Assembly: GCF_947305105.1 (NCBI RefSeq)
Contig: NZ_CAMZCS010000028.1
Coordinates: 1-42,468, forward strand
Reading direction: 5' to 3'
Source: an uncultured Fibrobacter sp.
Lineage (GTDB): Bacteria; Fibrobacterota; Fibrobacteria; Fibrobacterales; Fibrobacteraceae
Length of the DNA: 42,468 bases
Position numbers and translations under genes: made by a program. The first letter of the stretch is position 1, and each line of letters opens with the position of its first letter. A model generated the notes under the pieces. That model saw nothing but the letters and a program-made list of their open reading frames with translations. It was not told where the DNA came from and ran no database searches. Positions 2,654-37,259 of the stretch are shown here, piece by piece.

Positions 2654-2890
2654 TGGTTACGGGGTGAGTAGGAAGTAGACAGTAGGAAGTGGTTAGGGAT
2701 TAGGATCTAGAATCTAGGGGCTAGGGAGAAATATCACGGCTTCGCCGTCTTATATTGACGCACGAAGTGCGTGATTCTTTTCACTAGCCTCTATTCTCTA
2801 GTCTCTCAAAGACTCACTGCTCACCGCTCACGGCTCATGGCTCATAGCTCATAGCTCATCGCTCGTGCCTCGAGCCTGGAGCCTCCCTAC
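2654..2890. repeat. Heptamer tandem array with two-hairpin core (locus A)
   Basis: Nearly the whole gap can be read in consecutive 7-bp units. From 2668 the units are GTAGGAA, GTAGACA, GTAGGAA, GTGGTTA, GGGATTA, GGATCTA, GAATCTA and GGGGCTA. From 2784 they are CTAGCCT, CTATTCT, CTAGTCT and so on, drifting to GCTCATA/GCTCATC types and then CCTCGAG and CCTGGAG up to the eamA stop codon. A 60-bp core (2724-2783) separates the two arrays. It holds the hairpins ACGGC-TTC-GCCGT and CGCAC-GAA-GTGCG. The same core recurs at 33214, 37021 and, shortened, 33867. Confidence 0.9.
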
Positions 2891-3754: not shown

Positions 3755-3820
3755 AGTAGGAAGTCGGAAGTAGGAAGTAGGAAGTTACTGTCTACTGTCT
3801 ACTTCCTACTGTCTACTAAA
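3755..3820. repeat. Head-to-head heptamer array (locus B)
   Basis: The whole gap between the smc stop and the eamA start is heptamers. GTAGGAA, GTCGGAA, GTAGGAA, GTAGGAA run one way, then TACTGTC, TACTGTC, TACTTCC, TACTGTC, the reverse complements of GTAGACA/GTAGGAA types. The two halves form an inverted repeat. There is no hairpin core here. Confidence 0.88.
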
Positions 3821-32941: not shown

Positions 32942-33049
32942 GGGGCTAGAATCTAGGGGTTAGAGGCGATGAGGTCGGGGCTAAAGCCCCTTTGAGGTGT
33001 GAGGAAAGTAGGAAGTAGGAAGTAGACAGTAGACAGTAGGAAGTAGGAC
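32942..33049. repeat. Heptamer array (locus C, left part)
   Basis: Units of 7 bp run from GGGGCTA, GAATCTA, GGGGTTA (32942) through an irregular zone with the hairpin GGGGCT-AA-AGCCCC (32977-32990). From 33008 they continue as GTAGGAA, GTAGGAA, GTAGACA, GTAGACA, GTAGGAA and GTAGGAC. The array stops where the next palindrome begins. Confidence 0.85.
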
Positions 33050-33107
33050 AAATGCGTAAGGCGAGTGCCGCGGTCAAGCTTGCTTGAACATGGCCGAGCC
33101 GAGCATT
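33050..33107. repeat. 58-bp imperfect palindrome
   Basis: AAATGC (33050) and GCATTT (33102) form the ends, and GGTCAAGC with CTTGAACATGGCC forms the centre around TTG, with smaller matches between. It interrupts the heptamer array and looks like a small inverted-repeat insertion. Confidence 0.65.
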
Positions 33108-33109
33108 TG

Positions 33110-33183
33110 GTACTTGAGCTATACGAAACTTGGCAATTTATTGCCTTAGTTGAGTTATCCTCTATGAGGAGTAGCGAGAGTAC
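33110..33183. other. 74-nt three-way-junction fold
   Basis: The ends GTACTTGAGCTA and TAGCGAGAGTAC pair at 10 of 12 positions (one of them a G-U), the exceptions being a tandem G-A/A-G mismatch at 33116-33117. Two hairpins lie inside. The first is AACT-GGCAA-TTTA-TTGCC-AGTT (33127-33151, small internal loop). The second is TCCTC-TAT-GAGGA (33158-33170). This could be a small RNA, a structured insertion or a decayed RNA gene; no anticodon-like arm identifies it as a tRNA. Confidence 0.55.
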
Positions 33184-33185
33184 AA

Positions 33186-33351
33186 GTAGGAAGTGGTTAG
33201 GGGTTAGGATCTAGGGAGAAATATCACGGCTTCGCCGTCTGTTACTAACGCACGAAGTGCGTGATTCTCATTCACTAGCCTCGAGCCTGGAGGCTCGAGC
33301 CTCATACCTCATCGCTCATTGCTCACTGCTCGGGCCTCGAGCCCCGAGCCT
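33186..33351. repeat. Heptamer arrays flanking the two-hairpin core (locus C, right part)
   Basis: The left units are GTAGGAA, GTGGTTA, GGGGTTA and GGATCTA. The core is 33214-33274 (61 bp). The right units from 33275 are CTAGCCT, CGAGCCT, GGAGGCT, CGAGCCT, CATACCT, CATCGCT, CATTGCT, CACTGCT, CGGGCCT, CGAGCCC and CGAGCCT. The core is almost identical to the inverted one at 37021. The greA -10 box follows immediately. Confidence 0.92.
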
Positions 33352-33371: not shown

Positions 33372-33839
33372 ATGAAGCATTTGATTTCCAAAGAGGGTTT
33401 CGAAAAACTCAAGGCCGAATGGGAACACCTCAAGTACGAGGAACGCCCCGCCATGATCAACCAAGTGCAGGCCGCCGCCGCCGAAGGCGACCGCAGCGAA
33501 AACGCAGCCTACACCTACGGCCGCATGCGCGTCCGCGAGATTGACCGCCGCCTGCGCGAACTGGACCGCATCCTGGATGGCGCAAAGATTGTCGAAAACG
33601 TCGCTCCCGAAGACGGATCCATCAAGTTCGGTGCGACAATCAAGATGGTGGACATCAAGACCAAGCGCGAAAAGACTTACAGCATCGTCGGTGAAAAGGA
33701 AATTGACCCGCTCAAAGGCCGCATCAGCATGAAGTCGCCCATCGGCGAAGCGCTGCTCGGCAAAAAGAAGGGCGAAACCGTGCAAGTACAAGCCCCCCGC
33801 GGAACGATTACTTACGAAATCCTGGAAGTTACTTATTAG
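33372..33839 (+). CDS. greA: Transcription elongation factor GreA
   Basis: GreA enters the secondary channel of stalled RNA polymerase and stimulates cleavage of the backtracked transcript. The 155-residue protein has the N-terminal coiled coil (L-I-S-K-E-G-F-E-K-L-K-A-E-W) with the functional acidic tip in A-A-A-E-G-D-R-S-E-N-A-A-Y. The C-terminal FKBP-like domain has the S-I-V-G-E-K-E-I-D-P pattern, I-S-M-K-S-P-I-G-E-A-L-L-G-K-K and a final strand. Length is normal. There is no Shine-Dalgarno sequence, and a TATATT box lies 9 bases upstream, so the message may be nearly leaderless. Repeat DNA flanks the gene on both sides. Confidence 0.95.
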   Translation: MKHLISKEGFEKLKAEWEHLKYEERPAMINQVQAAAAEGDRSENAAYTYGRMRVREIDRRLRELDRILDGAKIVENVAPEDGSIKFGATIKMVDIKTKREKTYSIVGEKEIDPLKGRISMKSPIGEALLGKKKGETVQVQAPRGTITYEILEVTY

Positions 33840-33941
33840 AATCTAGAGAATAGGATCTAGGGGCTAGAGAAAATTTAGACGCACGAAGTGCGTGATTCTT
33901 ATTCACTAGATCCTAATCTCTAGCCTCTAACCACTAGCATC
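33840..33941. repeat. Heptamer array with shortened core (locus D)
   Basis: The whole gap between the greA stop and the tatD start is repeat. The units are GAATCTA (starting in the greA stop codon), GAGAATA, GGATCTA and GGGGCTA. A core keeps only the second hairpin (CGCAC-GAA-GTGCG), and CTAGATC, CTAATCT, CTAGCCT, CTAACCA and CTAGCAT run up to the ATG. The first hairpin of the core is deleted here. Confidence 0.9.
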
Positions 33942-36985: not shown

Positions 36986-37115
36986 TGGCTCCAGGCTCGG
37001 GGCACGAGGCTCGAGGCAAGTGAATGAGAATCACGCACTTCGTGCGTTAATAACAGACGGCGAAGCCGTGATATTTCTCCCTAGTCTCTATATCCTAGCC
37101 TCTAGATTCTCTAAT
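36986..37115. repeat. Heptamer arrays and core in inverted orientation (locus E)
   Basis: The units TGGCTCC, AGGCTCG, GGGCACG, AGGCTCG and AGGCAAG lead into a 61-bp core (37021-37081). This is the reverse complement of the core at 33214, with only one or two differences. TAGTCTC, TATATCC, TAGCCTC and TAGATTC follow. Confidence 0.9.
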
Positions 37116-37184: not shown

Positions 37185-37192
37185 GTGTTGTT

Positions 37193-37259
37193 ACTCAAAA
37201 CTGAGAACTGATAACTCAAAACTGAGAACTCAAAACTGAGAACTGATAACTCAGAACTA
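37193..37259. repeat. ACTSANA heptamer array (locus F)
   Basis: Ten perfect 7-bp steps: ACTCAAA, ACTGAGA, ACTGATA, ACTCAAA, ACTGAGA, ACTCAAA, ACTGAGA, ACTGATA, ACTCAGA, then ACTATTA, whose last three bases are the gdhA stop codon. The array lies between gdhA and its terminator, so it would be transcribed. Confidence 0.93.

Follow-up and report, generated by a model that had tools for sequence, protein, structure and literature searches.

REP and BIME sequences are palindromic repeats tagged with GTAG or CGTC (Di Nocera 2013, PMC3733652). Stems in the CGTC family are 8-9 bp long, with loops of 4-5. Degenerate heptanucleotide repeats are known from the cyanobacterial STRR sequences and the P6b stem of the trnL intron (PMC3488679, in which Costa 2002 is cited), and TAACTGA heptamer arrays from Beggiatoaceae, Cyanobacteria, and Bacteroidetes (PMC4679880). 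Porphyromonas carries the BrickBuilt MITE (PMC4596501). We analyzed a 42,468-nt stretch of DNA from an uncultured Fibrobacter sp. (the window), in which a core of two hairpins recurs between arms of heptamer repeats. Our best reading is that the core belongs to a REP-like repeat family that does without a RAYT, conserves its structure, and is framed by STRR-like heptamer arms. The family is apparently undescribed in Fibrobacter, as no account of it was found in the literature outside subscription journals. We judge it about an even call that the core is a bidirectional transcript-end element of Fibrobacter gene ends, spread and exchanged mainly by recombination and slippage in the arms and not by a RAYT.

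Like REP and BIME sequences, the core is a dispersed, multi-copy hairpin element of the kind often found as inverted dimers with a conserved spacer. It lies between codirectional and convergent genes, near stop codons, and its stems differ among subfamilies. Unlike them, it has neither a GTAG nor a CGTC tag, and the bases neighboring each hairpin, unpaired in the hairpin itself, are ATC or GAT. Its stems are 5-6 bp with loops of 3 nt, its genome lacks a RAYT, and long inverted arms of heptamers, which pair with each other and covary, surround the dimer. Two features that define RAYT-REPs, the tag and the enzyme, are therefore missing. The stem of hairpin 1 plus one base does read GCCGTC, but this candidate CGTC tag was rejected because stem, loop, and tail do not fit.

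The arms resemble STRR and P6b in their degenerate 7-nt repeats, in pairing into a hairpin, in varying by whole units, and in containing non-motif inserts. A lag of 7 is unique among lags 5-11, and arm pairs show double changes, in line with the tandem 7-nt units and pairing arms of STRR-type repeats. However, P6b is a single stem in an intron, whereas Fibrobacter has many intergenic arrays of many heptamer families and a conserved two-hairpin center. TAACTGA arrays are likewise intergenic direct repeats of heptamers, and one array in the window, at 37187-37259, has similar units (GATAACT/AACTGAG), but those arrays repeat one fixed heptamer mostly upstream of start codons, whereas the Fibrobacter arms abut stop codons, are palindromic, and are of many kinds. 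BrickBuilt is similar in its intergenic position, internal tandem repeats, predicted long stem-loops, and presence or absence at orthologous gaps; unlike the core, it has 23-nt repeats inside IS5-like inverted ends, target duplications, and no two-hairpin core. Finally, the core resembles Rho-independent bidirectional terminators in a predicted GC-rich hairpin and U-rich tail on each strand, a position at gene ends, and fewer ordinary terminators adjacent to it. It differs from them in that its many copies are homologous, its fold includes a closing helix and long arms that pair, and its tail does not directly follow the stem.

Copies in the window and across genomes

A preliminary description of this DNA had reported a two-hairpin core at three sites and a fourth copy with one hairpin. 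Inspection of the sequence found all four, and the covariance model scores them at 89-98 and 53 bits, respectively (Table 1). Every full copy in the window reads ACGGC-TTC-GCCGT followed by ACGCAC-GAA-GTGCGT. The cores at 33214 and 37021, described as nearly identical, are indeed one spacer base apart (TGTTACTA / TGTTATTA). The array of the partial copy begins at the greA stop codon.

Table 1. Core copies, hairpins, and heptamer arrays in the window.
Feature	Position	Strand	Basis
Core copy 1, full	2715-2789	+	Covariance model R2, 97.8 bits; sequence
Copy 1 hairpins	2736-2748 and 2758-2772	+	Within R2 model span
Copy 1 left arm, AGTAGGA/AGTAGAC, GTGGTTA, GGATCTA units	2667-2714	+	Sequence, AG every 7 bp
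Copy 1 right arm, TCTATTC, GCTCACT, CTCGAGC units	2790-2885	+	TRF, period 7
Core-less heptamer palindrome, (AGTAGGA)n then (TACTGTC)n, filling the gap between two genes	3755-3817		TRF; sequence
Copy 2 left arm	33191-33204	+	Sequence
Core copy 2, full, element under study, predicted three-way junction	33205-33280	+	R2, 92.5 bits
Copy 2 hairpin 1, ACGGC-TTC-GCCGT	33226-33238	+	Sequence; stem covaries across species
Copy 2 hairpin 2, ACGCAC-GAA-GTGCGT	33248-33262	+	Sequence; stem covaries across species
Copy 2 right arm, CTCGAGC / GCTCATT units	33281-33351	+	Sequence; TRF
Partial copy, greA-tatD gap, only hairpin 2 left, both CTAG arms	33837-33911	+	R2, 53 bits
Copy 3 arm, GGCTCGA units	36987-37014		TRF
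Core copy 3, full, gap downstream of gdhA	37015-37090	-	R2, 89.0 bits
Copy 3 arm, CTAG units	37091-37113		Sequence
Core-less array, AACTGAG/AACTCAA/AACTGAT, abutting gdhA stop codon	37187-37259		TRF; sequence

The core also recurs elsewhere in the genome that contains the window (G000; 72 contigs, 3.57 Mb), where some of the copies lie at the ends of contigs. A search of G000 for the exact 16-mer CGCACGAAGTGCGTGA gave 68 matches, and for the same 16-mer read backwards 0, so its recurrence is not due to chance. Copy counts come from sequence searches and fetched stretches. A two-hairpin pattern allowing up to 3 mismatches gave 68 copies in G000, 64 in G012, 58 in G052, 36 in G013, 26 in G021, and 10 in G022, 0-2 in other Fibrobacter, and none in 87 genomes of the phylum outside Fibrobacter. 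The family is discrete: nearly all of the 203 matches in fetched DNA have 0-7 mismatches, with almost none beyond that up to 14. When a covariance model (R1) was built and searched over 167 genomes (80 Fibrobacter and 87 others of the phylum), it matched 40 of the 80 Fibrobacter genomes and gave one weak match outside the genus. A second model (R2) found 66 copies in G075, 60 in G071, 34 in G066, and 31 in G018. The core family is confined to Fibrobacter, with almost no matches in the rest of the phylum; a few species have many full copies, and the diverged subfamilies reach 40 of the 80 genomes. Titles of the named core-bearing records are of Fibrobacter metagenome-assembled genomes only, several of them from rumen, yak, or goat gut. 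Fibrobacter is a central genus in the breakdown of cellulose in the rumen, and this structurally conserved repeat family occurs in about half of it. Rfam gave no gathering-level match except tRNAs, and only chance-level matches around copy 2; a known RNA family was rejected as the identity of the core because no Rfam family fits.

A fold conserved while its letters change

The fold of the core is kept while its letters change, and its stems covary strongly. Unprompted, RNAalifold predicted for 22 copies a three-way junction in which the CTAG arms pair as the outer helix and ATC pairs with GAT inside it, below the two hairpins. The consensus has an arm stem of 7-bp repeats, an invariant ATC/GAT closing helix, and hairpin loops TTC and GAA. 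With 24 copies aligned by MAFFT, both partners had changed in 11 of the 20 pairs (45 cells against 14.5 in shuffles, 0/500), and slid controls were near zero. Among 37 distinct rows, double changes occurred in 13 of 20 pairs (130 cells vs 47.7), including the arm pairs of helix 1, and the hairpins had near-invariant neighbors, ATC on the 5' side of hairpin 1 and GAT on the 3' side of hairpin 2. Copies gathered by a structure model lean towards structure, and alignment A4 was fitted to that structure; the first alignment (A1) was gathered by sequence instead, and a sequence-only pattern search recovered the paired double changes ACGGC/GCCGT, ATGGC/GCCAT, and GCGGC/GCCGC.

Diverged subfamilies carry other stems (GAGGC/GCCTC, GTGGC/GCCAC, and GTAGC/GCTAC; ACGAGC/GCTCGT, ATTCGC/GCGAAT, and ACATGC/GCATGT). 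They have TTAGG arms in place of CTAG, and their loops, closing helix, and spacing are mostly unchanged. The reverse complement of the core also matches the covariance model, and the element as modeled is a nearly symmetric inverted dimer. Fold z-scores were -2.4 for copy 2 as RNA and -4.6 for copy 1 with its arms as DNA.

Orthologous copies are also conserved as sequence. Across 47 orthologous pairs, a set gathered with a near-consensus pattern and thus favoring conserved copies, mean identity was 99.0% in the core, 85.9% in the arms, and 90.8% in the gene flanks, and the core exceeded its flanks in 45 of the 47. The earlier view that the hairpin core is much better conserved than the heptamers is therefore supported. 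In a less biased comparison of G000 with G013, we reckon core divergence at about 4% against about 12% in flanks. Spacer type is the same in 78% of orthologous pairs, compared with 31% of non-orthologous ones, in a list that includes some noise from a repeated gene family. Because these site-specific spacers agree, the copies descend vertically, and gene conversion alone is insufficient to explain their uniformity.

Placement at gene ends and a candidate terminator role

The core is depleted where two genes start. Among 46 classifiable copies, 31 lie in tandem, 12 in convergent, and 3 in divergent gaps, against a background of 152:40:85 (divergent depletion, p=0.0003). In other subfamilies, the modeled unit often starts 17-23 bp past a stop codon, and in two cases it exactly fills a convergent gap, of 113-115 bp. 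Within tandem gaps, 14 copies have the orientation of the genes and 17 the opposite one; this lack of preference fits a two-way element but proves nothing.

A terminator scan marked hairpin 2 as terminator-like on the plus strand (copy 2 tail GATTCTCATT) and hairpin 1 on the minus strand (copy 2 tail GATATTTCTC). Ordinary terminators were called at 4 of 46 core-facing gene ends and 93 of 259 core-free ends (p=0.0001). In this test, the G000 gaps were compared with those of another species, and both genes and terminators were called with home-made programs. Other species gave 5 of 32 core-facing ends (p=0.03), and G013 alone 3 of 17, which is not significant. Heptamer-only gaps showed no depletion (16 of 45). 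This pattern, read from sequence, fits the core standing in for ordinary terminators at gene ends, although insertion of the core into gaps that were already terminator-poor would look alike.

We regard a transcript-end role as a candidate function of the core. The element would form a closed three-way junction on the heptamer-arm stem, and its near-symmetry would place a hairpin and a U-rich tail on both strands, so that genes ending next to it could use it as a terminator or a 3'-end hairpin. Against this role, the U-rich tail begins 2-3 nt past the stem and would lie inside a stem if the arms pair. Under a stricter rule, which requires U in the first two bases of the tail, no terminator is called in the core. 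If the core does end transcripts both ways, it could be used directly in Fibrobacter operon annotation and genetic tools.

The near-symmetry, the DNA fold of copy 1 with its arms, and the lack of strand preference would also suit a DNA-level site, either protein-binding or cruciform, that serves nucleoid organization, segregation, or supercoiling and lies in convergent and codirectional gaps by chance. However, the depletion of ordinary terminators is limited to gaps with a core, which points to transcript ends, and no binding protein is known for such a site. We consider this explanation improbable.

Heptamer arms and arrays

The arms are tandem degenerate heptamers and form imperfect inverted repeats; AG recurs at 7-bp intervals upstream of the core, and CT does so downstream. 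The left arm of copy 2 is preceded by further modules, in a longer composite that reaches back to 32941. Heptamer arrays are not restricted to the core. In 1.2 Mb of the congener G013, 51 of 489 intergenic regions (about 10%) contain lag-7 arrays, against 0-2 for lags 5, 6, and 8-11. Across about 28 species, the greA-tatD gap is occupied by heptamer palindromes or other cassettes with hairpins, of which at least six are unrelated; in G026 the gap is just 4 bp long. The preliminary description suggested that the arrays may be a by-product of the core, a suggestion that did not survive, because arrays occur without it, both in the window (3755-3817 and 37187-37259) and in the same gaps of many core-less species, as at greA-tatD.

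Conversely, the core might be a by-product of replication, with heptamer slippage and palindrome-making template switches occurring everywhere and the core being one outcome kept by gene conversion. The frequency of lag-7 arrays, the unrelated palindromes at greA-tatD, and a flipped center described below are what such a process would produce, and it may explain the arms. As a full account of the core, it is strongly opposed by covariation and by the fixed features of one homologous family, whose loops, ATC/GAT closing helix, and spacer length are constant in 40 of 80 species. The survival of site-specific spacers in orthologous pairs likewise shows that conversion alone does not keep the core uniform. 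We regard this account as very unlikely. With a transcript-end role for the core, the bacterial heptamer-repeat puzzle of STRR and trnL P6b would be tied to a concrete and testable role at gene ends.

Presence, absence, and exchange at orthologous gaps

The core is a dispersed unit that is present or absent at orthologous gaps, in support of the mobile or functional unit suggested in the preliminary description. When 25 G000 sites were mapped into G013, 11 had a core, about 4 were degenerate, partial, or near-identical, and about 10 had none. With so many of the 25 sites lacking a counterpart in the other species, the core cannot be strictly required by any one gene, which weighs against our main reading. 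Clean empty sites exist at L041 (213 vs 9 bp) and L046 (247 vs 1 bp), where the inserted composite is ragged-ended and there is no clear target duplication. The 68 copies in G000 and these empty sites run counter to both outcomes that would have refuted the preliminary description, a lack of copies elsewhere in the genome and a lack of presence/absence differences.

Other gaps have exchanged their contents. At L016, L037, L003, and L049, a different heptamer-armed hairpin cassette occupies the gap between flanking genes that are 86-95% identical, and at greA-tatD G052 has a wholly different cassette although it is 96% identical to G000. At the L058 site, arms and core orientation are common to six loci, with 14-bp differences in arm length, but in G022 (L322) those arms enclose a center that is flipped and belongs to a different subtype (ATGGC). 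At L053, the arms are unchanged in G012, yet the core between them has switched to a different type of spacer. Judged from these alignments, the flip, the spacer switch, and the arm-length changes are probable marks of recombination and slippage within arms. On this reading, copies would spread and be exchanged mainly when heptamer arms slip or recombine, homologously or homeologously, events that would exchange or flip centers and add or remove 7 or 14 bp.

A dedicated mobilizing enzyme was not identified among Y1 transposases, reverse transcriptases, or copy-flanked genes. The suggested search for a RAYT/Y1 gene found no Y1 transposase (PF01797) in G000, where controls were positive, or in the copy-rich G013, G052, and G075, and a RAYT/Y1 mobilizer is rejected for this genome. 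Across Fibrobacter, Y1 genes are uncorrelated with core copy number, and two that were scanned from other Fibrobacter are of the IS200 type (NF033573), under the RAYT cut-off. Of the REP-like mechanism first envisaged, the REP-dimer-like organization and placement stand, but the RAYT does not. Reverse transcriptase was rejected as well, being absent from G000, G012, and G052 and not correlated with the core. An autonomous gene between clustered copies was also considered; the gene in this position on contig C5 encodes a mechanosensitive channel, and other neighbors are Fib_succ_major or VWA proteins.

These results bear on whether the core is simply selfish, a non-autonomous REP- or MITE-like repeat moved in trans by some transposase and tolerated at gene ends, with its hairpins kept for enzyme recognition. 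Bursts of subfamilies in six related species with 0-2 copies in most others, the clean empty sites, and the inverted-dimer layout seen in REP dimers are all as this would predict, and paired stem changes are expected of a folded recognition site. However, G000 has no Y1/RAYT or reverse transcriptase, target duplications are not recognizable, and what copies have in common is composite arms, not fixed ends. Moreover, orthologous copies are conserved beyond their gene flanks, which purely selfish DNA does not require. On balance, we find a selfish origin somewhat unlikely. Spread by arm recombination would instead offer a RAYT-free case of REP-like spread.

A broader proposal, which we offer tentatively as a possibility, is that gene ends are exchangeable slots, in which a recombinogenic heptamer frame lets centers be swapped, flipped, and spread without a dedicated transposase while a shared transcript-end function is kept. 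The centers so swapped would include the two-hairpin core, GAGGTC-hairpin-TTTGAG modules, and CGTC-type REPs. If the arms are exchange frames, orthologous gaps in about 80 species would form a natural record of intergenic rebuilding around fixed genes.

Other repeats and modules near the core

Very large paralogous genes are separated by core copies at L311, L154, L160, and L195; the L311 gene encodes a VWA / InlB-repeat protein of about 1,590 aa. Core repeats may help such gene families rearrange.

Several other modules are found in heptamer arms or beside core copies. GAGGTC-[hairpin]-TTTGAGG modules occur in the window at 32970-32998 and at L003, L009, and L053, with perfectly paired stems (GGCAC/GTGCC, GGGGC/GCCCC, GCGACC/GGTCGC, and GCGTCTC/GAGACGC). 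They suggest another structured family in heptamer frames, with a stem variety for which the GAGGTC...TTTGAG pattern is too loose to give a firm count, some stems occurring in shuffles too. The GTCATTGCGAGGGGCGAAGCCCTGAAGCAATCTC modules nested in left arms at L022, L026, L046, and others resemble REP repeats of the known CGTC class. At no fewer than three loci (L023, L048, and 33051-33190 in the window), core copies are adjoined by a longer module that is itself repeated (AAATGCGTAAGGCGAGTGCCGCGGTCAAGCTTGCTTGAACATGGCCGAGCCGAGCATTTGG...GAGTACAAGTAG). A second module of about 54 bp (CCACCTAAAGGTGGCCATGCCCACATAAGTGCTAAAGCACTAAGTGGTCAAAGG), with two hairpins, lies inside heptamer arms (L007 vs L171; also L026, L034, and L053). 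It is found in either orientation, and in the cases read it follows a C and precedes TA. The empty site is clean and no duplication can be seen, so that its insertion resembles site-specific single-strand insertion.
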